A program made the position numbers and the translations under genes. Shown here in pieces: positions 937 through 13,153 of a stretch of 30,601 nucleotides of DNA (its first letter is position 1; each line of letters begins with the position of its first letter). The notes under the pieces are model-generated. The model saw only the letters and a list, made by a program, of their open reading frames with translations, was not told where the DNA came from and made no database searches. This DNA comes from a virus: positions 1 to 30,601 of IMG/VR virus record IMGVR_UViG_3300047476_001516; one strand, 5' to 3'.

Positions 937-2723
937 ATGGCAGCTACAACTGCAAGTGGCGTTGGCGCAGCGGATCTTCCGTTGCTCGACAAAAAATGGC
1001 TCACCTTCGCATTCGCCATCTATGCTGTGTTCTACGCATGGGTACGCTGGTATGAAGGCGTCTATGGCTGGTCCGCCGGTCTCGACTCATTCGCACCCGA
1101 GTTCGAAACCTACTGGATGAACTTCCTGTACACCGAAATCGTCCTGGAAGTCGTCACCGCCTCCATCCTGTGGGGCTACATCTGGAAGTCCCGTGACCGC
1201 AACCTGGCGGCTATCACCCCGCGTGAAGAGCTGCGTCGCAACATGACCCACCTGGTCTGGCTGTTTGCTTACGCCAACGCCATCTACTGGGGCGCTTCCT
1301 ACTTCACCGAGCAGGACGGCACCTGGCATCAGACGATCGTGCGTGACACCGACTTCACCCCGTCACACATCATCGAGTTCTACCTGAGCTACCCGATCTA
1401 CATCATCACCGGCTTCGGCGCCTTCCTGTACGCCAAGACCCGTCTGCCTTTCTTCGCAGAAGGTCTGTCCCTGCCCTACCTGGTGACTGTGGTTGGTCCG
1501 TTCATGATCCTGCCGAACGTAGGTCTGAACGAATGGGGTCAAAATGGCTCCTACACTCAGTAATGAGTGTAGAAAACTGCTCTAATTGCTGGGAACTCCT
1601 ACTGGGACAATCAGCAGCCAAGCTCAGAAATGAGAAGGTTCAACGACTAGATCGCAAGATCGTACATCCAAGTGGATGGAAATGGGCAGAATCCCGTGAT
1701 GGGATTAAGATATAGTCTGGTCTTACAGGTAACTGTAAGCAGTTTCAATAAGAAACGGTATAAGAGTAACGAACTTATATGAACAAAACACATACTTTTT
1801 GGTTTCAACGTAAGCCACTTTAAGCAGTAATGTTTATAGAAAACCACTTTAATTGCTGGAAACTCCTACTGGGACAATCAGCAGCCAAGCTCAGAAATGA
1901 GAAGGTTCAACGACTAGCCGAAAGGCGTACACTCAAGCGAGTGGAAATGGGTGGGATCCTACTGGGATCAAGATATAGTCTGAACTGTATGGTAACATAC
2001 AGCAGTCCTAAAAGGACGGATAAGAATTTAGCGAATCTTATTGAACACGATGTTATGGAAGAACTTTTTGTCGCTCAATTGGGGCGCTTATAATCGCGAG
2101 ATTATAATGAAAACTCTGTGAATTCGGTGAACATCTCAATGCTGAGACAATACCGAGCCAAGCCCTGATTATAGGGAAGGTGTAACGACTATTCCGAAAG
2201 GAAGTACCATCAAGTGATGGGAAGCGCAGAGCAACTGATTGAATCAGTTGAAGAGATAGTCTGATCTATGTGGTAACGCATAGCAGTTCCTTTTGGAACG
2301 AGTAAGTATTAACGAAACTTACTGAACATTGCGCCATTGCACTATGGCTTCGTTTTCTTCGGTTAATAACTAGCCGCTTAATATAGCGATGTATTATGAA
2401 AAACTCCTTTAATTGCTGGAAACTCCCACTGGGACAATCAGCAGCCAAGCCCGAAAGGGAAGGTTCAACGACTAGCCGCAAGGCGTAGGATCAAGTGATC
2501 CGAAATGGGGAGCAACCAGAAATGGTTGAAGATATAGTCTGATCTGTGTGGCAACATGCAGCGGTTCTTAAAAAGAACGGTATAAGTATAACGAACTTAT
2601 ATGAACACATTGTGGTTAGCACTGGCGATTGCTGGAGTTCTACTCCAAGTATTTGCTAGTTTCGGTAATTTAATCGGAAAGGACATTGTTGAAGCGGTAG
2701 ATAGTGGATTGATTGCGAAGTAA
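937..2723 (+). CDS. pmoC: Particulate methane monooxygenase subunit C, split by four group I introns
   Basis: Predicted join 937-1539, 1791-1803, 2053-2075, 2334-2363, 2613-2723, giving 780 coding bases and 259 residues, the normal PmoC length. PmoC is an integral membrane subunit of the copper enzyme that oxidises methane to methanol. Exon 1 covers residues 1-201 and ends NEWG. Exon 2 supplies HTFW and the first base of F, exon 3 finishes F and gives MEELFVA, exon 4 gives [10 protein letters not shown], and exon 5 gives WLALAIAG to the end (LIAK). All copper ligands by homology to Methylococcus PmoC are present: D127, H131, H144 (CuC) and N198, H202, H216 (CuD), at a constant offset of 29. 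Unspliced translation stops at 1561. The start has AGAGG at 924-928. Exon 1 uses GC-rich, CTG-type codons; exons 2-5 use AT-rich codons like the phage genes. No pmoA or pmoB is visible. Splicing is inferred, not shown. Confidence 0.93.
1540..1790 (+). ncRNA. Group I intron 1 of pmoC (251 nt, no ORF)
   Basis: Core signatures are present: R-type GGTTCAACGACTAG at 1637-1650 and S-type AAGATATAGTCT at 1707-1718. P1 pairs exon end GGGGT with GCTCC at 1547-1551, with the expected U.G pair at the splice site. P2 is a 9-bp hairpin (CTACACTCA/TGAGTGTAG, GTAA loop) at 1551-1572. A 3-bp P10 (CAT with ATG at 1545-1547) and the spacing from a conserved GAACA seen in introns 2-4 both place the 3' splice site after 1790. 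That makes the last intron base A, not the usual G. Nearly identical in core and P9 hairpin to the intron at 8680-8930. It interrupts between G201 and copper ligand H202. Confidence 0.9.
1804..2052 (+). ncRNA. Group I intron 2 of pmoC (249 nt, no ORF)
   Basis: R element around 1904-1917 and S element AAGATATAGTCT near 1970-1981. P1: exon 2 end TGGT pairs with GCCA, with U.G at the splice site. P10: exon 3 start TTATG pairs with CGTAA immediately 5' of the P1 strand, a 5-bp match that fixes the 3' site. The intron ends in G at 2052, ten bases from the start of the conserved GAACA. It splits the phenylalanine codon between exon 2 and exon 3. A block of about 65 bases covering the P/Q and R elements is almost identical to intron 1. 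Confidence 0.92.
2076..2333 (+). ncRNA. Group I intron 3 of pmoC (258 nt, no ORF, divergent)
   Basis: The most divergent copy: R-type GGTGTAACGACTA and S-type GAGATAGTCT (about 2253-2262) are recognisable. P1: CGCT at the exon 3 end with GGCG, U.G at the splice site; P10: CCA of exon 4 with TGG. An 8-bp hairpin (TTATAATC/GATTATAA, GCGA loop) at 2089-2108 matches the P2 position of intron 1. It ends in G at 2333, again ten bases from the GAACA start. It lies two codons before copper ligand H216. Confidence 0.9.
2364..2612 (+). ncRNA. Group I intron 4 of pmoC (249 nt, no ORF)
   Basis: P1 pairs CGGT at the exon 4 end with GCCG, with U.G at the splice site. P10 pairs exon 5 start TGGTTA with TAACTA just upstream of the P1 strand (six pairs, one wobble). 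The R element GGTTCAACGACTAG and S element AAGATATAGTCT are intact. It ends in G at 2612. The 3' end (TATAAG stem, GAACA) closely matches introns 1 and 2. Splicing joins FFG to WLALAIAG in frame. Confidence 0.92.
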
Positions 2724-2743: not shown

Positions 2744-2770
2744 AAAAGGGAGCTATGCTCCCTTTTCTTT
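2744..2770. terminator. Bidirectional terminator between pmoC and the GIY-YIG gene
   Basis: A 10-bp stem AAAAGGGAGC/GCTCCCTTTT with TAT loop, followed by a T-rich tail on the plus strand and TTTTC on the minus strand. It lies 20 bases after the pmoC stop. The stop codon of the convergent endonuclease gene is in its loop, so it probably ends both transcripts. Confidence 0.85.
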
Positions 2771-3514
2771 TGTCTTTTGTTTACAATTGTCTCCGTGATA
2801 TCTTGTCATGTTGCCTCCACTGCCCACGTGTCCACAATGTGGACAAACTTTTGTTTTCATATTTCGTTTTTTAAAAACCCTATCTTTTAACCAACCTGGT
2901 TGAACATTCTCGTCAAGAACATAATAATCTTGCTCTCCGTCATTCCACCATTTAAAATCGCCTCTATCCCTCGTGTTTGCGCTTTCCGACATTTTTGCAA
3001 TAGTCTCATTGGAATACACATTCGTTCGACCTTTATTCCAAGGAACTTGTCCAGTTTTTTTGTTTTTGTTCCAAGGAGTGGAACCCTTTTTGGATCGACT
3101 CATTGTTTCGCGATATTCGTTAGTTCGTGGTGGTTTCTTTTTTCCTTTCCCCATTCTTCCTACTTCGGCCAGTTTTATTTTTGTTTCTGGTGTGTGTTTG
3201 TATCCTATTGTTCCCTCGCCTCCCTCTGTCATGTTGTATCCATTGCTATCGGGAAAATAAATGCAACTATTGAATTCTCGGATAAAATATGGTTCCATCT
3301 CTTTCAGTGTATGGATAGCATCTGATGATTGGTATATTGCTTCCCATTCAAAAGAATCCCAACCGTATTTTCTTAGACTTCTGTGAAAAACGTGATTTCC
3401 TATCTTCATCGCGGTCTTGTGTTCTGCTTGACGTTTAGGCCAATTGGAATCGTATCCTATGTAACACTTTCCTGAAATTTTGTGAGTTGCCTTATATATA
3501 GTATAAATATTCAT
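2753..3514 (-). CDS. Free-standing GIY-YIG homing endonuclease with NUMOD-type and zinc-finger regions
   Basis: A 253-residue protein. The start at 3514 is chosen over an upstream ATG at 3562 because GGAGGA precedes it and the GIY-YIG domain begins at once (MNIYTIYKATHKISGK, then CYIGYD). The catalytic pattern is visible: Y of the first motif, YIG, an arginine in the following helix (WPKRQAEH) and a glutamate in EPYFIREF. A segment GYKHTPETKIKLAEV matches the NUMOD3 style of DNA-binding motif. The C-terminus has a CPHCGHVGSGGNM...H...NC zinc-finger-like motif common in phage endonucleases. Such enzymes cut intron- or gene-less alleles to spread themselves or neighbouring introns. It sits tail-to-tail with pmoC, which carries four ORF-less introns, so it may drive their homing in trans. 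It is preceded by a structured leader shared with the other two GIY-YIG genes. Confidence 0.85.
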   Translation of the reverse strand: MNIYTIYKATHKISGKCYIGYDSNWPKRQAEHKTAMKIGNHVFHRSLRKYGWDSFEWEAIYQSSDAIHTLKEMEPYFIREFNSCIYFPDSNGYNMTEGGEGTIGYKHTPETKIKLAEVGRMGKGKKKPPRTNEYRETMSRSKKGSTPWNKNKKTGQVPWNKGRTNVYSNETIAKMSESANTRDRGDFKWWNDGEQDYYVLDENVQPGWLKDRVFKKRNMKTKVCPHCGHVGSGGNMTRYHGDNCKQKTKEKGA

Positions 3515-3583
3515 TGCTGATAGTCCTCCATAGACTGTTAGGGTAGTTAGGTGCGCTAACACCGTGAACTACACTTATTTATC
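3515..3583 (-). ncRNA. Conserved structured leader, copy A (late promoter + covarying hairpin + RBS)
   Basis: Reading on the minus strand: GATAAATA (3583-3576), AGT, outer stem GTAGTT/AACTAC, bulge CAC, inner stem GGTG/CACC, loop TTAGCG, single T, then CCTAACA and GGAGGA before ATCAGCA-ATG. Both stems are perfect and differ in sequence from those of copies B (7653-7719) and C (9971-10040), while the bulge, loop, CTAA and RBS regions are kept. The loop TTAG could pair with the downstream CTAA. Confidence 0.8.
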
Positions 3584-5095: not shown

Positions 5096-7405
5096 TTATC
5101 GTTGTTGTTTTTCTTGTTCTACTGCTCTGAGTACTTCATCTCGTAATTCTTCTGGCACAAGTTCTAACGCATCGACATCCTGACTAACAGCGATTTTGCA
5201 TAGTTCTGCATATTCTGGTAATTCTTCTGGCACAAGTTCCAACGCCCACCAAGCCTGGCTAACAGCGATTTTGCATAGCGTTGGTGTTCTTAGTTCTTCT
5301 GGCACAATTTCCAACGCATAACCGTTTTGACTAACAGCGATTTTGCATATATCTGCATATTCTGGCAATTCTTCTGGTACGTGCCGCAGTGCCTCGCCAT
5401 CTTGACTAACGGCGATTTTGCATATCTCCTCATATTCTGGCAATTCTTCTGGCACCCAATACAACGCCCAACCCTTTTGACTAACAGCAATTTTGCATAG
5501 CTTTGATGTTCGTAATTCTTCTGGCACATATTTCAACGCCAGGCCCTCATTACTAACAGCGATTTTGCATAGTTTTGCGTATTCTGGCAATTCTTCTGGC
5601 ACATATTTCAACGCCCCGCCACTTTGACTAACAGCGATTTTGTATAGTTCTGGTGTTCGTAATTTTTCTGGTACTTGATCCAGTGACAAAACTCCTTGAC
5701 TAACAGCGGCTTTGTATAATGCTGGTGTTAGCAAATATCTTGGCACATGCCTCAACGCCCAACCCTTTTGACTAACAGCGATTTCGCATATTTCTGGATA
5801 TTCTGGCAATTCTTCTGGCACAAGTTCCAACGTACGCCAATTTTGACTAACAGCGATTTTGCATAGTTCCGATGTTCTTAATTCTATTGGAACAAATTGC
5901 AACGCCCAGTCATCTTTGCTAACAGCGATTTTGCATATCTCTAAGTATTCTGGTAAGTCTTTTGGCACATATTCCAACGCCCTGCCGAAGTTACTAACAG
6001 CGCGTTTGCATAGTTCCGATGTTCTTAGTTCTTCTGGCACATATTGTAACGCCCACCCATATTGACTAACAGCGATTTTGCATAGTTTCGGTGTTATTAA
6101 TTCTTCTGGCACGTATTGCAGTGCGTCGCCACCTAGACTAACAGCGATTTTGCATAGCTTGGCATAACCAGGAGTAGTCGGTTGAACATACCCTAAGTTA
6201 TTATAATTCCGTAGAACAAGTCCCTTCAAGATTTCAAAATTTCTTCGTATATCTCTATTTGCTTGAGATATAAGTAATTTGGGATCTCTTTTCAACACAT
6301 CCAATATCACGTCTTTGTAACGATCAATAAGATTACTCGGAACATTCAGTGATAATTTTGGGTCTGTTTGAATTGCTTTATCCCATGCCGCAGGATCATT
6401 AGTGTATTCACCGGTATTTGGATCAATCAGATATTGTAAGCCCGGTGATAGACCTGATATCTCATTGATGTACATTTTCCTTACCCAAGTCGGTGCCTTT
6501 AGTGCTTGACTGGGACTTACTTTAATTTGATCGCTTATAAGATTAGGTTTTTTATTCTGAATTACTTGTAGATTTTCATCTGATAGGTCGAATACCGAGA
6601 AGTTATTGTCGGCTAAGTAACCCCCACCTTGTATGCCTTTTACCTTATCACTCAGTAATAAACTCATGATCTGAGGATGAAGTTTTTCTGATGGCTTCTG
6701 GTTATTATATGCCTTCATCTCTCCGAGATTGCCATTAGGTTCCAAAATAAAGGTAAGCAACACCTGACCGTTCTTTCTAAGACTCAGGATTCTTTGGTCA
6801 GGCTTGCTTTTTCCGGTTATATTACCACAATGCTTTCCGTACTCTCCTTCTTTCTCGCAGTAAGCCCTATCAACCCACCACCAAGCACTCCCATCAGGGA
6901 ATTTCATCAATTCATAATCGCCTTCTTGTGGTTCTATCGGTGGTAGATTATTTTTACTCTGTTTTTCACTCCAATCTTGTTCTATAGAACGTAGATCACC
7001 CATGATTTCATCATATGATTTCTTACCGAATTGATACGAATCTACTGCTGGTATATTGAAGCCAAAGAAGTGGCCAAGATCATTTTGAATTGCTTTTATA
7101 TCAGGTACTTGCTTGCCAGCCTGTTGATCAGCAAGCATATTGCCGACATTCTTCATGTACCAAACAATTTTTTCGTCCTTTTTCAAGGTAGCCTTTGCCC
7201 ACTTGAGTTGATCGGCAATCTCTTGTTGGAAATCGGGATATTTAGCCTTCATTGAAGCAATCATGCCATCGTAACTGGCTTCATCCAATTGATGCTCTTC
7301 GTATATCTTCTTACTGGATTCAACGACGAATTCATGAAACAACCGATAAGCAGTTGATTCATCATCATTCATAAGCGATTCAAGGATTTTAGTAAATTTG
7401 GACAT
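5096..7405 (-). CDS. 769-aa protein: phage N-terminal domain plus 14 DUF4116-type repeats
   Basis: Three regions. Residues 1-45 (MSKFTKILESLMNDDES..., LFHEFVVESSKKIYE) resemble the helical N-termini of T4-like phage head-associated proteins. Residues about 165-275 hold a YCEKEGEYGKHCGN motif followed by RILSLRKNGQVLLTFI and an EMKAYNNQKP segment; this C...HC arrangement is seen in a family of phage proteins of unknown function. Residues about 413-760 are 14 copies of a 22-27 residue unit with consensus CKIAVSQxxxALxxVPEEL, matching DUF4116 repeats, whose role is unknown. The repeats would form a helical solenoid suited to protein binding. A GATAAATA motif lies 22 bases upstream of the ATG, so late expression is likely; there is no clear Shine-Dalgarno. 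A virion or host-interaction role is only an inference. Confidence 0.8.
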   Translation of the reverse strand: MSKFTKILESLMNDDESTAYRLFHEFVVESSKKIYEEHQLDEASYDGMIASMKAKYPDFQQEIADQLKWAKATLKKDEKIVWYMKNVGNMLADQQAGKQVPDIKAIQNDLGHFFGFNIPAVDSYQFGKKSYDEIMGDLRSIEQDWSEKQSKNNLPPIEPQEGDYELMKFPDGSAWWWVDRAYCEKEGEYGKHCGNITGKSKPDQRILSLRKNGQVLLTFILEPNGNLGEMKAYNNQKPSEKLHPQIMSLLLSDKVKGIQGGGYLADNNFSVFDLSDENLQVIQNKKPNLISDQIKVSPSQALKAPTWVRKMYINEISGLSPGLQYLIDPNTGEYTNDPAAWDKAIQTDPKLSLNVPSNLIDRYKDVILDVLKRDPKLLISQANRDIRRNFEILKGLVLRNYNNLGYVQPTTPGYAKLCKIAVSLGGDALQYVPEELITPKLCKIAVSQYGWALQYVPEELRTSELCKRAVSNFGRALEYVPKDLPEYLEICKIAVSKDDWALQFVPIELRTSELCKIAVSQNWRTLELVPEELPEYPEICEIAVSQKGWALRHVPRYLLTPALYKAAVSQGVLSLDQVPEKLRTPELYKIAVSQSGGALKYVPEELPEYAKLCKIAVSNEGLALKYVPEELRTSKLCKIAVSQKGWALYWVPEELPEYEEICKIAVSQDGEALRHVPEELPEYADICKIAVSQNGYALEIVPEELRTPTLCKIAVSQAWWALELVPEELPEYAELCKIAVSQDVDALELVPEELRDEVLRAVEQEKQQR
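5125..6170 (-). repeat. Imperfect tandem repeats coding for the DUF4116-type units
   Basis: Fourteen units of about 66-81 bases, each containing a form of CTAACAGCGATTTTGCATA (plus strand) and an adjacent TCTTCTGGCACA. They are coding repeats, diverged in the loop positions. Confidence 0.9.
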
Positions 7406-7719: not shown

Positions 7720-8601
7720 ATGCTATTTAGTACCCTAAACTGGGAGCCAGTAAAGAAAGTTCCATTATTCATTCACGATGTGAATGATATTATATCTACT
7801 TGGAAGCAATACACTCATTGGAAGAATCTTAATGATTATTGTGTATATGTTTACTTGCGAGAGGAATCCGATAAACACGGTCCGAAGTACAGCATTCGTT
7901 ACGTCGGAGAAGGACAACCTAAAAGAATAATTAGCAAAAATCATAGAGTGAGAATTCCTATAAGCGGTGAATTTATCTTCGTGGTTGATGGATTGACAAA
8001 AAAGGAAGTCAGAGATATCGAGGAAAAAATAATTCAAGTTTTCGGAAGAATATCAAAAGGAACTGGTATCTTGGAAAACCTGAAACACAAATGCGGCGGA
8101 CAAGAAGATCCAGTGCCTCCGAGAAAAAAGGAATTGTGTCAATATTGCGGCAACGAATATGCTCACCTTCAATTTCATGAACGACATTGTGACAAAAATA
8201 TTGACAGAGAATATGGAACAAAAACATATCAATACACTAAATGTCAGTATTGTGGTGACGAATTTACTATAAATCAGGCACAACAACATGAAAGAAGTTG
8301 TAAACGCAATCCTGATCCTAAACCCTCGTCGCATAAAATGTTGTCATGTAAATTTTGTGACAGAGAAGTTTTAAGTTCCGCTATGCCCCAACACGAACGA
8401 ACTTGTGCCAAGAATCCAAATAGAGTGGCTGGACCAGGCACTGGTAATACGTTTTCAAAAATTCAATGTTCTATGTGTGATAGGATGGTAGCTTACAATA
8501 ACATAGCTATTCATGAGAGAAGTTGTAAAAATAATCCAAATAGAGTTCCGGGTGTCAGATATGGTAAAACGAGTAAAAAGATAAATACATTTGCCGAATA
8601 G
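7720..8601 (+). CDS. GIY-YIG-like nuclease with four C-terminal zinc fingers
   Basis: A 293-residue protein. Residues 38-70 (YCVYVYLREES..., YSIRYVGEGQPKRI) match a GIY-YIG fold with YVG for YIG and a following arginine. An acidic helix at 93-105 (KKEVRDIEEKIIQVFGR) supplies the candidate catalytic glutamate, and GTGILENL follows as in LEM-3-like members. Residues 140-157, 175-194, 210-229 and 250-269 are four similar zinc fingers of the form CxxC...HERxC, which should bind DNA. Likely role: sequence-specific homing or mobility nuclease. The ATG follows AGGAGG and the conserved leader copy B. It stands just before a gene with an ORF-less group I intron (8680-8930), so it may act on that site in trans. 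Confidence 0.75.
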   Translation: MLFSTLNWEPVKKVPLFIHDVNDIISTWKQYTHWKNLNDYCVYVYLREESDKHGPKYSIRYVGEGQPKRIISKNHRVRIPISGEFIFVVDGLTKKEVRDIEEKIIQVFGRISKGTGILENLKHKCGGQEDPVPPRKKELCQYCGNEYAHLQFHERHCDKNIDREYGTKTYQYTKCQYCGDEFTINQAQQHERSCKRNPDPKPSSHKMLSCKFCDREVLSSAMPQHERTCAKNPNRVAGPGTGNTFSKIQCSMCDRMVAYNNIAIHERSCKNNPNRVPGVRYGKTSKKINTFAE

Positions 8602-8673
8602 GTCGGTTTATGGGGTATTAATCCACCTCGTAGGCGAATAGAACCGCCATTATAAACAAAAGGAGATAAAATC

Positions 8674-9740
8674 ATGGGTCGGCTGGCCCCGCCAGATAGT
8701 AATATCTAGTGATAACTGCTCTAATTGCTGGGAACTCCTAATGGGACAATCAGCAGCCAAGCCTCGTGAGAGGAAGGTTCAACGACTAGCCGAAAGGCGT
8801 ACACTCAAGTGAGTGGAAATGGGTAGGATCCCTCCGGGATCAAGATATAGTCTGATCTTACAGGTAACTGTAAGCAGTTTTGATTAAATCAAAGCGGTGC
8901 GGAATTAACGTCTCTGCGCGAACAACGTTGCGTCCTCTAAAAGTACAGAAGTATTCACCAGGTTCCGGGGATAACGGAACATCAACCACAGCGGGCAACG
9001 GTGTTCCGGTTCCCGTAGATATCGCTTATCCACCGTTTATTGCGATGGATCCAGGCACCGCTGTCACACCAGCTGGTAGCCTTATTACACCACCTTGGAC
9101 TGGTGTAGTCGGTGGTGTGCCAAACCCAGCAACGTCTGCTGCTTACCCTATCGTGGCCATTACTGTAAATGTAGCTCTACCTAACGGAACTGGCGCTGGT
9201 GTTGCACCGGGTGCAATTATTCGTCAGAAAGGTTCGCGCAAATATATGGTAGCTGATCTAACGCCTGTTGCAGCCACGGCCATGATTCCTGGTGCAGCTT
9301 ATATGATTGCCACTACAGGCAATACACCATGGCAATCATTTGGTGCAAGCGTTAATTATAATATTTGGGATGTATTCACTTGTACTGCCGCTGGTACTGG
9401 AACGGGTACTGCATATCTTGTGGGTTCTTGCGTTCTTGACGATACAGCTAATCCGACTGTGGGCAACATGAGTATCGGTTTCCTTGATAGCACTTCCACG
9501 GTTCAGTATATCAGCAAATTAACAAATAAATTTCTATTTGACTTTGCTGGTGGCGAGGTCGGCGGTAATGCTAATGCCGGTGATGTCTGGTCATATGAAC
9601 AGGTACAAAACAACGAACGTTGGATTGCGAACTTTTTCACTGATGATGGATACATGGTCAAGTCTGGCACAAGTGGTGGTCCGAATACACCCGGCCAACA
9701 AAACCAAGTTCCGATGGGAGATGTGGATTCTTATACCTAA
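8674..9740 (+). CDS. Phage structural protein, start codon separated by a group I intron
   Basis: Predicted join 8674-8679, 8931-9740: exon 1 is only ATG GGT, exon 2 continues with CGT CCT, giving MGRPLKVQ and a 271-residue protein. Exon 1 carries the ribosome-binding site (AGGAG at 8661-8665); exon 2 has none, so the gene needs splicing to be translated. Unspliced translation from 8674 stops after 11 codons. The mature sequence is glycine, alanine, threonine and proline rich with repeated beta-type strands, and an MGRPL start is typical of T4-like phage structural proteins. No enzyme motif. It is probably a head-decoration or fibre-associated virion protein. A splice site three bases earlier (adding L) is also in frame. 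Confidence 0.75.
8680..8930 (+). ncRNA. Group I intron 5, after codon 2 of the structural gene (251 nt, no ORF)
   Basis: It carries the same P/Q block (CTAATTGCTGGGAACTCCTA), R element GGTTCAACGACTAG and S element AAGATATAGTCT as the pmoC introns. P1 pairs exon end GGGT with GCCC, with U.G at the splice site; P2 is AGATA-GTAA-TATCT. The P9 hairpin CTTACAGGTAACTGTAAG is identical to that of pmoC intron 1, its closest relative. The 3' end has a P9.2 stem and GAACA, then G at 8930 (or 8927). The same length as pmoC intron 1. Confidence 0.88.
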
Positions 9741-9759
9741 TCGTATTAGGTTATCCTCC

Positions 9760-9791
9760 AATAGCCCCGATTTATTCGGGGCTATTTTTTG
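9760..9791 (+). terminator. Intrinsic terminator after the structural gene
   Basis: Ten-bp stem AATAGCCCCG/CGGGGCTATT, loop ATTTATT, then TTTTT. A 15-base inverted repeat CCTAAT-CGT-ATTAGG directly precedes it at 9736-9750. Almost identical to the terminator at 11233-11262. Confidence 0.85.
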
Positions 9792-9960
9792 CCTTGCGAT
9801 TATTAAATTCAGTGAGATATGCGTTTAGGGTTGCCGACATCTGATTGAATAATCCTGCGTTGCCGGATGAATGTACCCATCGCATTTTTGTCTGTAAGTC
9901 GGTGATTTTATTGAATAATTCATCTGTGCTCAGAGACTTCAAGTCTAAATTCTGTGACAT
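9772..9960 (-). CDS. Small helical phage protein, 62 aa
   Basis: The 62 residues (MSQNLDLKSLSTDELFNKI...) are a helical, charged sequence, and a short protein with an LSTDEL-type opening is typical of T4-like phages; function unknown. It ends within the arm of the terminator that closes the convergent gene. No clear Shine-Dalgarno site. It faces away from the leader copy C that starts at 9971. Confidence 0.6.
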   Translation of the reverse strand: MSQNLDLKSLSTDELFNKITDLQTKMRWVHSSGNAGLFNQMSATLNAYLTEFNNRKAKNSPE

Positions 9961-9970
9961 AATGTTATTT

Positions 9971-10040
9971 GATAAATAGAAGTACCGATCGCGATATTGA
10001 CGTATCCATCGGTTCTAACGCTTTAGAGGAGCAATCAGCG
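9971..10040 (+). ncRNA. Conserved structured leader, copy C
   Basis: GATAAATA (9971-9978), outer stem ACCGAT/ATCGGT (9984-9989 with 10008-10013), bulge CGC, inner stem GATA/TATC, loop TTGACG, single C, then TCTAACG and GAGGAG before ATCAGCG-ATG. The stems differ from copies A and B but remain perfectly paired. Here the following ATG opens a 40-codon frame and not the endonuclease itself. Confidence 0.8.
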
Positions 10041-10163
10041 ATGATATTTATTATCTCGGTCAATCGACCCGAAAATTCTCCTATTGGCGTTGCCATAATC
10101 AACAAAGGAGAACTTCAATGGCAACTAAAAAATCAAAAACACCTGTCTACTATACCTATCTGA
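10041..10163 (+). CDS. Short upstream ORF (40 aa) overlapping the endonuclease start
   Basis: The ATG at 10041 has exactly the position relative to leader copy C that the endonuclease ATGs have relative to copies A and B, with the same GAGGA site, so it is probably translated. The product (MIFIISVNRPENSPIGVAII...) has no domain. It overlaps the start of the gene at 10118 in another frame, which suggests a leader peptide, translational coupling, or a relic of a gene replaced by the endonuclease. Confidence 0.45.
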   Translation: MIFIISVNRPENSPIGVAIINKGELQWQLKNQKHLSTIPI

Positions 10164-11224
10164 TAGGGTGGTCTTGGCTTAATACTTGGTATTATGGAAG
10201 CAAATATTCTAAAAATGCCGACCCAGAATTATTCTGGAAGAAATACTTCACATCAAGTAAACACGTAAAGCGATTTCGTGAACAACACGGCGAACCTGAT
10301 GTAATTCAAGTCAGACATACCTTCAACTGTCCTATTAAAACACTTGCTTGGGAAGGCAAAGTTCACAAACGCATGGGTTGTCGGTTGAGTTCACGGTGGC
10401 TAAATGCGGCCGATGCTAATGTCAAGTGGAACACCGCCGGTATGTTCAACGTAAAAGATAATTTAAATAATATTTTTCAAGTATCAGTGAATGATTTTAG
10501 ATATCTATCTGGTGAACTCAGGGGCATATTAAGTGATAGAGTAACTGTGCAGGATAAGTCTGGTAAAACGATGTCAGTGTCGGTGTCTGACGAAAAATAT
10601 ATATCAGGAGAGTGTATCAGTATCAATAAGGGAAAAATTCCGGTAAAAGATAAGGATGGGAAATCATCACAAGTGACGAGAGATGATTTTAGGTGGGTAT
10701 CTGGAGAACTCGTTCACGTCACTAAAGGTACTGTAAACGTGTTGGATAAAGATGGCAATAATATTAGAATAAAAAAAGACGATCCACGATTGTTGTCGGG
10801 TGAATTGACAGGGATCGTCAAAGGAACTATTGTAGTTATGGACAAAGATGGCAATAAATTCAGAGTATCTAAGGATGATTCTAGGTGGATATCCGGCGAG
10901 TTAAAAGCATTGTCTTCTAATACAGTGATGATCAGAGACAAAGATGGAAGTGCGATCAGGGTGTCAAAGGACGATCCACGGTGGGTATCGGGCGAGATGA
11001 CGGCAATCGCCAAAGGCAAGGTGAATGTTATCGACAGAGATGGAAATAAGTTTATGGTATCAAAGGATGATCCTCGATGGTTATCGGGTGAATTGATAGC
11101 ACTATCTACAAATTCCGTTGTGGTAAAGGATAAGTTCGGGAATAAATTTAGAGTATCAAAAGATGATCCTCGATGGTTATCGGGTGAAGTTGTAGGAGTA
11201 AATAAGAAAAATTGGCCCTGTTGA
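10118..11224 (+). CDS. GIY-YIG-like endonuclease with eight C-terminal DPRWLSGEL repeats
   Basis: A 368-residue protein. Residues 10-105 (YYTYLIGWSWLNTWYYGSKY, YFTSSKHVKRFREQHGEPD, WEGKVHKRM, RWLN) match a GIY-YIG-type domain common in T4-like phage mobile endonucleases, with YLIG/YYG for the two motifs and E80 as the candidate metal-binding residue. Residues about 111-362 are eight units of about 30 residues with consensus VxDKDGNxFRVSKDDPRWLSGEL, which are probable DNA-binding modules like the NUMOD-type repeats of homing enzymes. Start chosen for AAAGGAG nine bases upstream. It ends at a terminator that is a near copy of the one before it at 9760, so the cassette is flanked by direct repeats. 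Confidence 0.75.
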   Translation: MATKKSKTPVYYTYLIGWSWLNTWYYGSKYSKNADPELFWKKYFTSSKHVKRFREQHGEPDVIQVRHTFNCPIKTLAWEGKVHKRMGCRLSSRWLNAADANVKWNTAGMFNVKDNLNNIFQVSVNDFRYLSGELRGILSDRVTVQDKSGKTMSVSVSDEKYISGECISINKGKIPVKDKDGKSSQVTRDDFRWVSGELVHVTKGTVNVLDKDGNNIRIKKDDPRLLSGELTGIVKGTIVVMDKDGNKFRVSKDDSRWISGELKALSSNTVMIRDKDGSAIRVSKDDPRWVSGEMTAIAKGKVNVIDRDGNKFMVSKDDPRWLSGELIALSTNSVVVKDKFGNKFRVSKDDPRWLSGEVVGVNKKNWPC

Positions 11225-11232
11225 TATCACGG

Positions 11233-11262
11233 AATAGCCCCGATTTATTCGGGGTTATTTTT
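11233..11262 (+). terminator. Intrinsic terminator after the third GIY-YIG gene
   Basis: AATAGCCCCG/CGGGGTTATT stem with ATTTATT loop and T-run. Apart from one C-to-T change and one base less in the T-run it is the same as the terminator at 9760-9791. Confidence 0.85.
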
Positions 11263-11279
11263 GCCCGATAAGTAATCAA

Positions 11280-11849
11280 ATGAACACAGCATTTGTATTG
11301 GGTAATGGTATCAGTCGGAAAAGTTTGGATTTAACTCAAATCAAAACAAAAGGAAAATTATATGGGTGCAATTCTCTTTATACTGAAATTATTCCCGATG
11401 TATTGGTGGCTACCGATAAACTGATTGCCGATAAAATACAAAATAGTGAATATGCTTTGAAGAATAGATTTTATACACGAAGACCAATTATTGGGTTGGG
11501 TGGTAAAACAGTTCTTCACCATACATTTAGTTCTGGGCCAAATGCAGTTGCGATTGCTATTGATGATAGATGCACGACGATCTATTTACTTGGTTTTGAT
11601 ATGGGACCAGATGATAAAAATGAATTTAATAACATTTATGCTGGTACTGAATTTTACAAAGCGATTGGTTCATCACCCACGTATGCTGGAAATTGGGTTA
11701 AGCAACTTACTCAGATAATGCAGACAAGTCATGAGTGTAATTTTATTCGCGTTTATGGGCATACAACCGCTATTATACCAGAATTGAACTTAATTAAAAA
11801 TCTATCGCATATCACTATACAGGAATTCTTGACTTTTGCCAAGAAATGA
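11280..11849 (+). CDS. Rossmann-like phage protein, 189 aa, function unknown
   Basis: The N-terminus TAFVLGNGISRKSLDL and the following YGCNSLYTEIIPDVLVATD resemble a family of phage and bacterial proteins related to sialyltransferase-like or MptE-like (DUF115) Rossmann domains, in which a GNG loop follows the first strand. Later features are an SSGPNAVAIAI segment and IYLLGFDMG strand. If the relation is real it could modify a surface glycan or nucleotide, but the sequence does not decide this. There is no good ribosome-binding site before 11280. It is followed after 10 bases by tnpB. Confidence 0.6.
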   Translation: MNTAFVLGNGISRKSLDLTQIKTKGKLYGCNSLYTEIIPDVLVATDKLIADKIQNSEYALKNRFYTRRPIIGLGGKTVLHHTFSSGPNAVAIAIDDRCTTIYLLGFDMGPDDKNEFNNIYAGTEFYKAIGSSPTYAGNWVKQLTQIMQTSHECNFIRVYGHTTAIIPELNLIKNLSHITIQEFLTFAKK

Positions 11850-11855
11850 TAAATA
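11848..11855 (+). promoter_or_regulatory. GATAAATA motif 4 bases before tnpB
   Basis: The octamer overlaps the stop of the preceding gene and ends four bases before the tnpB ATG. Transcription from it would give an almost leaderless message, so it may be coincidental. Confidence 0.3.
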
Positions 11856-11859
11856 ATAG

Positions 11860-13116
11860 ATGATTTTTAAATCTTTCAAATATCGCCTATATCCAAATGT
11901 GGCCCAACAAGAGCAGATGATAAAGACATTTGGGTGTAAACGACTAATATTCAATCATCTACTTGATACACAAATCAAGAGATATGAATCGGGTGAAGGA
12001 AATCTTACTTACTTCGGATGTAATAATCTGATTGTGGAATGGAAGAAGGAAGAAGAAAAAGCATTTTTGACAGAAGTAGATAGTCAAGCACTTCAGCAAG
12101 CAGCAAAAGACTTGCACGATGCCTATACTAACTTCTTCAAATCACTGAGCGGCAAGAGGAAAGGGACTAAAATTAATAGCCCTAAATTCAAATCCAAGTA
12201 TGCACGTCAGAGCTATCGTACCCCAAATAATAATGGAACGATTAAATTCAAAGATGATTCTTTGAGATTGCCAACTTTGGGTTATGTAAGAGCAGTTATT
12301 GACAGGAATATAGAGGGAAAAATTAAATCGGCTACTATCTCCATGGATAGAGATGGCAAATTTTATGTATCTGTTTTGGTTGAAACGGAACAGAAACTAT
12401 TATCAATGACTGGCAAGGAAGTCGGCATTGATTTAGGGATTAAGGATTTATTTGTTACATCAGATGGCAATAGATTCGATAATCCAAAAGACTTAATTCG
12501 TATGACAAAAACCACGCAACGAATTAAGTTGTTGCAGAAAAAGTTGGCAAGAACAAGAAAAGGCAGTAAGAGCAGAGAAAAGCTACGAATTCAATTGGCA
12601 TCTGCATATAAGAGGTTAACCAATCAAAGAAACAACTATTATCATGAAATCAGTCATTGGTTGGTTAATTCGTATGATGCAATTTATGCGGAAGATTTGA
12701 ATGTGAAAGGAATGATGGCTAATAGAAAACTATCAAGAGCTATTCATGAATCTTCATGGGCCACTTTGGTGGGAATGATTCAATATAAATGCGAGTGGTA
12801 TGGAAAAACATTTTATCAAATCAATCGCTATTATCCATCTTCAAAGACTTGTTCTTGTTGCAGCAATAAAATAGAAAAATTGTCATTATCCGAACGTGAA
12901 TGGAAGTGCCCATCTTGTGGCACATTACACGATAGAGACTATAATGCAGCGATAAATATCCTCAAAGAAGGACAAAAAGACTTATATAGCACTTCGTTGG
13001 TCCGACGCGAAGCGGGCGAAATAATCGTCCCGTCAGCTCTAGTGAAATTGAGTAGTAAAACCGAGAGGTCTGATTCGTTGAAATCAGTTGCTCAAGGGAC
13101 AGAGTTAGTTTATTAA
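11860..13116 (+). CDS. tnpB: IS605-family TnpB, RNA-guided nuclease, without TnpA
   Basis: A 418-residue protein with the whole TnpB architecture: N-terminal FKSFKYRLYPN region, central wedge/REC part, RuvC motifs with D191 (GIDLG), E278 (YAEDLNV) and D360 (HDRDYNAAINI), and a zinc ribbon CSCC...CPSC (C331, C334, C350, C353). All catalytic residues are intact. TnpB proteins are known RNA-guided DNA nucleases that use an omega RNA from their own 3' end and favour transposon retention. No tnpA is present, the gene starts 10 bases after the previous stop and the next gene starts 37 bases after its own, so there is little room for transposon ends. It may act as a stand-alone homing-type gene. The start lacks a clear Shine-Dalgarno. 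Confidence 0.92.
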   Translation: MIFKSFKYRLYPNVAQQEQMIKTFGCKRLIFNHLLDTQIKRYESGEGNLTYFGCNNLIVEWKKEEEKAFLTEVDSQALQQAAKDLHDAYTNFFKSLSGKRKGTKINSPKFKSKYARQSYRTPNNNGTIKFKDDSLRLPTLGYVRAVIDRNIEGKIKSATISMDRDGKFYVSVLVETEQKLLSMTGKEVGIDLGIKDLFVTSDGNRFDNPKDLIRMTKTTQRIKLLQKKLARTRKGSKSREKLRIQLASAYKRLTNQRNNYYHEISHWLVNSYDAIYAEDLNVKGMMANRKLSRAIHESSWATLVGMIQYKCEWYGKTFYQINRYYPSSKTCSCCSNKIEKLSLSEREWKCPSCGTLHDRDYNAAINILKEGQKDLYSTSLVRREAGEIIVPSALVKLSSKTERSDSLKSVAQGTELVY

Positions 13117-13153
13117 TACGGAATACATTTATCTTCGTGATTAAGAAGCACCA
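12975..13153 (+). ncRNA. Candidate omega RNA region at the tnpB 3' end
   Basis: In this family the omega RNA overlaps the last part of tnpB and runs to the element's right end. Here the codons after the zinc ribbon (from LKEGQKD) give a tail with no fold of its own, including a hairpin-prone CGACGCGAAGCGGGCG stretch, as expected for RNA-constrained sequence. The guide would be taken from sequence beyond the right end, which I cannot place exactly. Confidence 0.35.

Follow-up and report, generated by a model that had tools for sequence, protein, structure and literature searches.

A group I intron immediately after the second codon of a viral MGRPL-family gene

Cluster J mycobacteriophages provide known cases of group I introns in phage structural genes (LittleE capsid, BAKA tail); there, splicing was demonstrated by RT-PCR, a U precedes the 5' splice site and a G ends the intron; the BAKA intron measures 265 bp and has no endonuclease (PMC3706429). 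Self-splicing introns likewise interrupt a viral structural gene in Twort orf142 (tail tube, exon skipping), with several introns in the one gene and, going by the citing article, apparently not at its start codon (cited in PMC11878797). Phage introns in general have been proposed, as a hypothesis, to act as 'molecular-on-switches' (PMC11878797). A connection between group I splicing and translation initiation is found in the c-di-GMP allosteric ribozyme of C. difficile, in which splicing decides whether the coding sequence receives a usable ribosome-binding site and start, and an aptamer picks among 5' splice sites (PMC3984707). In ICP1 terL, an intron is accompanied by a free-standing homing endonuclease gene that adjoins the N-terminal exon, a layout termed collaborative homing (PMC10448857). 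In most group I introns, as reported, an in-frame stop follows closely on the 5' junction, and translation through this junction disturbs splicing (PMC3073962).

The locus described here lies in a viral DNA of 30,601 nucleotides (IMG/VR record IMGVR_UViG_3300047476_001516, positions 1 to 30,601), the whole of which is referred to below as the window. Its intron resembles the BAKA intron in being endonuclease-less and the Cluster J introns in its flanking U and terminal G, whereas its position at codon 2 and behind a conserved RNA leader has not been reported for Cluster J and its splicing is deduced from sequence. As in the C. difficile ribozyme, splicing would decide whether the coding sequence receives a usable ribosome-binding site and start; the window, in contrast, already has its Shine-Dalgarno sequence and start codon together in exon 1 and contains no known aptamer or ligand. 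The arrangement of an intron with a free-standing endonuclease-like gene adjoining the N-terminal exon recalls ICP1 terL, although the endonuclease of the window is a candidate only. The features of the locus are as follows.

7720-8601, plus strand: 293-aa ORF with C2HC zinc fingers and, by eye, a GIY-YIG-like N-terminus; candidate free-standing homing endonuclease
8592-8676, plus strand: putative freshwater-2 RNA motif (RF02980), a 5' leader with its 3' end at the start codon (47.0 bits, alignment)
8659-8665, plus strand: Shine-Dalgarno sequence AAAGGAG (sequence and scan)
8674-8679, plus strand: coding part of exon 1, ATG GGT (Met-Gly), with the 5' splice site after U8679 (sequence, fold, homologues)
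8676-8689, plus strand: P1 helix, GGGUC (8676-8680) with GGCCC (8685-8689) (predicted fold)
8680-8930, plus strand: group I intron of 251 nt, ORF-less (RF00028 match and empty sites in relatives)
8690-8711, plus strand: P2-like hairpin with an in-frame UAG (8707-8709) in its 3' strand (predicted fold, sequence)
8931-9740, plus strand: exon 2, 269 codons (RPLKVQK...VDSYT) and a stop (open frame, alignment)

The anatomy of the intron is recognized along the full length of the covariance model RF00028 (positions 1-253), which matches 8670-8874 with 85.1 bits (E 1.5e-20) against an Rfam cut-off of 50 bits and includes the conserved core P3-P9. In the predicted P1 the U that ends exon 1 forms a U.G wobble (U8679.G8686), and the helix also contains the G of the AUG. 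The terminal base of the intron is G8930, a boundary fixed by the homologues described below. These features bear out a preliminary description of the sequence, which had placed a group I intron after codon 2 with the same boundaries. Within 8680-8930 no ORF reaches 60 aa, leaving the intron without an endonuclease ORF of its own. P10 is imperfect (CGUCC/GGCUG, one mismatch by eye), which counts against the splicing model and would be in keeping with a dead intron, one that has lost splicing in a gene that is now a pseudogene or whose protein starts elsewhere in exon 2. However, the Rfam match is complete, exon 2 is open for all of its codons, start codon and Shine-Dalgarno sequence have been kept, and residues 1-7 are conserved in the homologues (protein alignment of 12), so that we consider a dead intron very improbable.

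The splice junction is defined by empty sites in related genes. In a scan on codons 3-9, the pattern of which did not itself require an ATG, all 80 viral loci listed as matches (NKK branch) begin with ATGGGN directly before CGNCC, and at least 10 viral contigs carry the exact uninterrupted 18-mer ATGGGTCGTCCTCTAAAA, which equals the spliced sequence of the window letter for letter. One intronless relative (L007) encodes a protein that starts MGRPLKIQKW and is 63% identical to that of the window over the aligned protein. Comparison with intronless homologues, expected in the preliminary description to begin MGRPLKV, confirms the MG/RPLK junction, MGRPLK being uninterrupted in the relatives; homologues that start within exon 2, which would have spoken against the proposed dependence on splicing, were not found, all of them starting at MG. 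The intron thus sits between ATGGGN and CGNCC, in the most conserved stretch of the MGRPL family, which the freshwater-2 leader and ATGGG/CGNCC make up together. Of the 65 distinct NKK-branch leaders, 62 have GGA as their second codon and 3 have GGT; the window has GGT, which fits a group I 5' splice site because a U is needed before it.

A second viral contig (L006) carries the same intron. It represents a distinct genome, as its protein is 95% identical with a differing C-terminus and the insertions downstream of the gene are missing, and an assembly artefact is therefore unlikely. The two intron-bearing genomes at the MGRPL locus are closely related. No other intron-bearing MGRPL gene was found by the pattern scan, in which all matches listed are uninterrupted and which is biased against interrupted copies, so that we derive no frequency from it. 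The DNA that the window has in addition to L006 spans 9741-13150; this window-specific stretch holds an ORF (10118-11224) whose repeats match an HNH-endonuclease PHROG and, further on, a TnpB/IS605 OrfB-like gene (11860-13116).

Exon 2 continues the open frame of a protein whose full-length ATGGGTCGTCCTCTAAAA-type homologues align along the whole of the exon at 45-49% identity (protein alignment of 12). Searches of Pfam, PHROG and PDB gave no match for this protein, and no relatives were found in GenBank phages and bacterial genomes. Its composition is rich in Gly, Thr and Ser, which together with its context makes the structural (virion) role assumed in the preliminary description plausible.

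Translation of this protein is tied to exon 1, in which the Shine-Dalgarno sequence and the first two codons are arranged as AAAGGAG-N8-ATG-GGT (8659-8679). The unspliced frame reads ATG GGT CGG CTG GCC CCG CCA GAT AGT AAT ATC TAG and so ends after 11 codons at the stop 8707-8709, as had been stated at the outset. Equally, the assertion that exon 2 has no ribosome-binding site of its own agrees with a scan of 8877-9231, where no Shine-Dalgarno word precedes an in-frame ATG, GTG or TTG, unlike the ATG at 8674, which is preceded by AAGGAG; an alternative start in exon 2 with a Shine-Dalgarno sequence was rejected on the same scan. The unspliced stop, the lack of such a start in exon 2 and the homologues starting at MG uphold the proposal that full-length protein depends on intron removal, and it is well supported by the sequence that splicing would be obligatory for it.

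Very probably, a phage group I intron that splices itself and lacks an endonuclease has entered an MGRPL gene between codons 2 and 3. After transcription, P1 would pair GGGUC with the internal guide GGCCC and the intron would excise itself, joining exon 1 (leader, Shine-Dalgarno sequence, AUG GGU) to exon 2 (CGU CCU CUA ...) to give MGRPLKVQK.... Prior to splicing the G of the AUG would be sequestered in P1; in the predicted unspliced RNA its unpaired probability is 0.09 while the Shine-Dalgarno sequence is partly open. That the start codon lies partly in P1 follows from the insertion site, because an intron directly after codon 2 necessarily places it there. A ribosome starting on unspliced RNA would be released at the UAG in P2, ahead of the catalytic core, a location that fits the early in-frame stop reported for most group I introns (PMC3073962). 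In the predicted spliced RNA the Shine-Dalgarno sequence is partly paired with exon 2, a fold to which we attach little weight. The intron would then be a tolerated mobile element that may have moved by reverse splicing or with the help of the candidate zinc-finger, GIY-YIG-like endonuclease encoded next to it.

Upstream of the start codon, the freshwater-2 motif (RF02980), a cis-regulatory candidate, matches 8592-8676 with 47.0 bits (E 3.5e-6 in 441 nt, 2.5e-4 over the window), just below the Rfam gathering cut-off of 49.9. Its position, the leader alignment and the homologous gene support kinship of this putative leader with freshwater-2, homologous leaders scoring 51-76 bits at the same place. 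Exon 1, said in the preliminary description to hold only ATG GGT and the ribosome-binding site, does contain both, but 'only' must be dropped, as it also holds this putative leader. Freshwater-2 matches above the cut-off end exactly at the ATG in 15 of the 20 MGRPL loci examined, and one further match, the sixteenth, is located some 500 nt upstream; the leader of the intronless L007 scores 64.9 bits (1593-1675). Freshwater-2 leaders also precede distant genes (MGRPLNKKYFGN...) in pmoC-phage contigs. By sequence comparison, freshwater-2 is thus the normal leader of a large family of viral genes for proteins with the N-terminus MGRPL. Such leaders of MGRPL-type genes were seen at L132:1501-1569, L133, L134, L007:1593-1675 and L139-L218. 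The RNA upstream of the intron is this motif, and no Rfam riboswitch was found there.

The position of the intron had led to the further suggestion that its removal could act as a timing or condition switch. On such a reading, delayed or condition-dependent splicing (growth state, translation or a signal read by the freshwater-2 leader) would time expression of the gene. The 5' splice site falls within the ribosome footprint and P1 holds the G of the AUG, and we infer from the predicted fold that ribosome initiation and splicing would have to compete for the same nucleotides; masking by P1 is nevertheless expected for any insertion at codon 2. By eye, GGGGU in the leader (8612-8616) could pair with the guide GCCCC (8686-8690) and serve as an alternative 5' splice site, but this may be chance, relatives having GC[GT]G or similar at that place. 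Precedents exist in the splicing-dependent ribosome-binding site of C. difficile (PMC3984707) and in T4, for which work cited in PMC3073962 reports a dependence of splicing on translation and on growth state. Set against these, most relatives of the gene do without the intron, freshwater-2 has no known ligand-binding aptamer, and conservation of the arrangement is confined to two near-identical genomes. With no sign of regulated splicing at this locus, we regard a switch as unlikely, and splicing here is probably constitutive. A composite control element, in which the leader fold or ribosomes choose the partner of the guide, is extremely improbable. If it were true, GGGU at the start codon would be the productive choice and GGGGU at 8612-8616 would remove the Shine-Dalgarno sequence together with the AUG, making translation of the gene conditional on splice-site choice.

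Most likely the intron is a selfish element of a known kind in an unusual position. The comparison set comprised 55 distinct introns from viral contigs carrying the core 20-mer of the window's intron, and in 9 of them, by a crude ORF test, no ORF longer than 25 codons leads into the intron from upstream; for at least 2 of these 9 (L058, L072) the ORF that comes next seems to belong to the intron itself and not to exon 2, and L014 likewise has an intron-type ORF downstream. Given the crudeness of the 9 of 55 and the doubt over L058, L072 and L014, no enrichment near starts beyond chance is claimed. Start-proximal introns were identified in two major head protein genes (L011 and L048; phrog_1328, 3.7e-82 and 2e-62) and in a major tail protein gene (L057; phrog_807, 8e-11). 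These related introns follow the early codons (about 6-24) of virion genes; their exon 1 exceeds two codons, and a freshwater-2 leader was not noted. Viral genes in L011, L048, L057, L016 and L054 were seen to carry a group I intron in roughly their first 25 codons. The start-proximal position is therefore not unique, while the two-codon exon 1 of the window is the shortest among the introns compared.

The closest kin of the intron lie on the same contig, in pmoC (937-2723):

1540-1790, 1804-2052, 2076-2333 and 2364-2612, plus strand: four related group I introns in pmoC

The MGRPL-gene intron is 77-84% identical to these four, the closest being pmoC intron 1 (83.9%), which is also preceded by GGGGT. 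Taking out the four introns, between which the inner exons measure 13, 23 and 30 nt, gives back a full-length PmoC of 259 aa, in agreement with the intronless PmoC of L082 at each of the four junctions. Judged by homology, the last bases of pmoC intron 1 ahead of CAT (His; 1780-1800) are ...AAAACA, so that it seems to finish with A where a terminal G is near-invariant; were splicing to use the nearest G upstream, Asn-Lys-Thr would be added. Related introns occur inside pmoC, at several sites, in 10 of 51 other viral pmoC loci (L081, L093, L094, L096, L097, L101, L103, L106, L109 and L119), and similar introns are present in 489 GenBank phage records. Phage pmoC is thus a group I intron hot spot, the most unexpected by-product of this analysis. 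Chen et al. (2020) described, in four pmoC-phages, a pmoC gene 'fragmented into two pieces', the word intron being absent from their article (PMC7674155), and no paper linking pmoC and introns was found in the literature searched. Introns would be a likely cause of the 'fragmented' pmoC genes of methanotroph phages (PMC7674155). The four-intron pmoC is directly followed by a GIY-YIG/NUMOD3 homing endonuclease gene (2753-3562), which is encoded on the minus strand.

How the intron reached the MGRPL gene may involve the ORF at 7720-8601, which ends 72 nt upstream of the ATG at 8674. Pfam calls a zinc finger in this ORF (PF13913, 3.1e-9) and nothing else, GIY-YIG included; one of its relatives has a NUMOD3 motif, and a PDB sequence search with this ORF and the exon-2 family gave nothing useful. 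Further upstream, the minus strand encodes a 769-aa protein with many DUF4116 repeats (5096-7405). In collaborative homing, the upstream endonuclease would cut the intronless ATGGGTCGTCC and both elements would be copied together. Consistent with this, the ORF accompanies the intron in the window and L006 and is absent from the intronless L007; an identical arrangement has been described for ICP1 terL, for T3 and for a cyanophage (PMC10448857); and among weak relatives of the ORF in cyanophages, located between neck genes and adjoining uvsY, one lies between neck genes. The GIY-YIG domain is nevertheless not called by Pfam, and the ORF could be an independent insertion, so that we put collaborative homing forward tentatively, as a possible route that falls somewhat short of probable. 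It is compatible with a self-splicing, endonuclease-less intron in the MGRPL gene and bears on mobility only.

The locus offers a very clean natural case of a 5' splice site within the ribosome footprint on a start codon, and an old problem, the compatibility of group I introns with coupled transcription and translation, could be tested here in one short RNA. At the same time an orphan Rfam motif, freshwater-2, is tied to a defined viral gene family, that of the MGRPL proteins.
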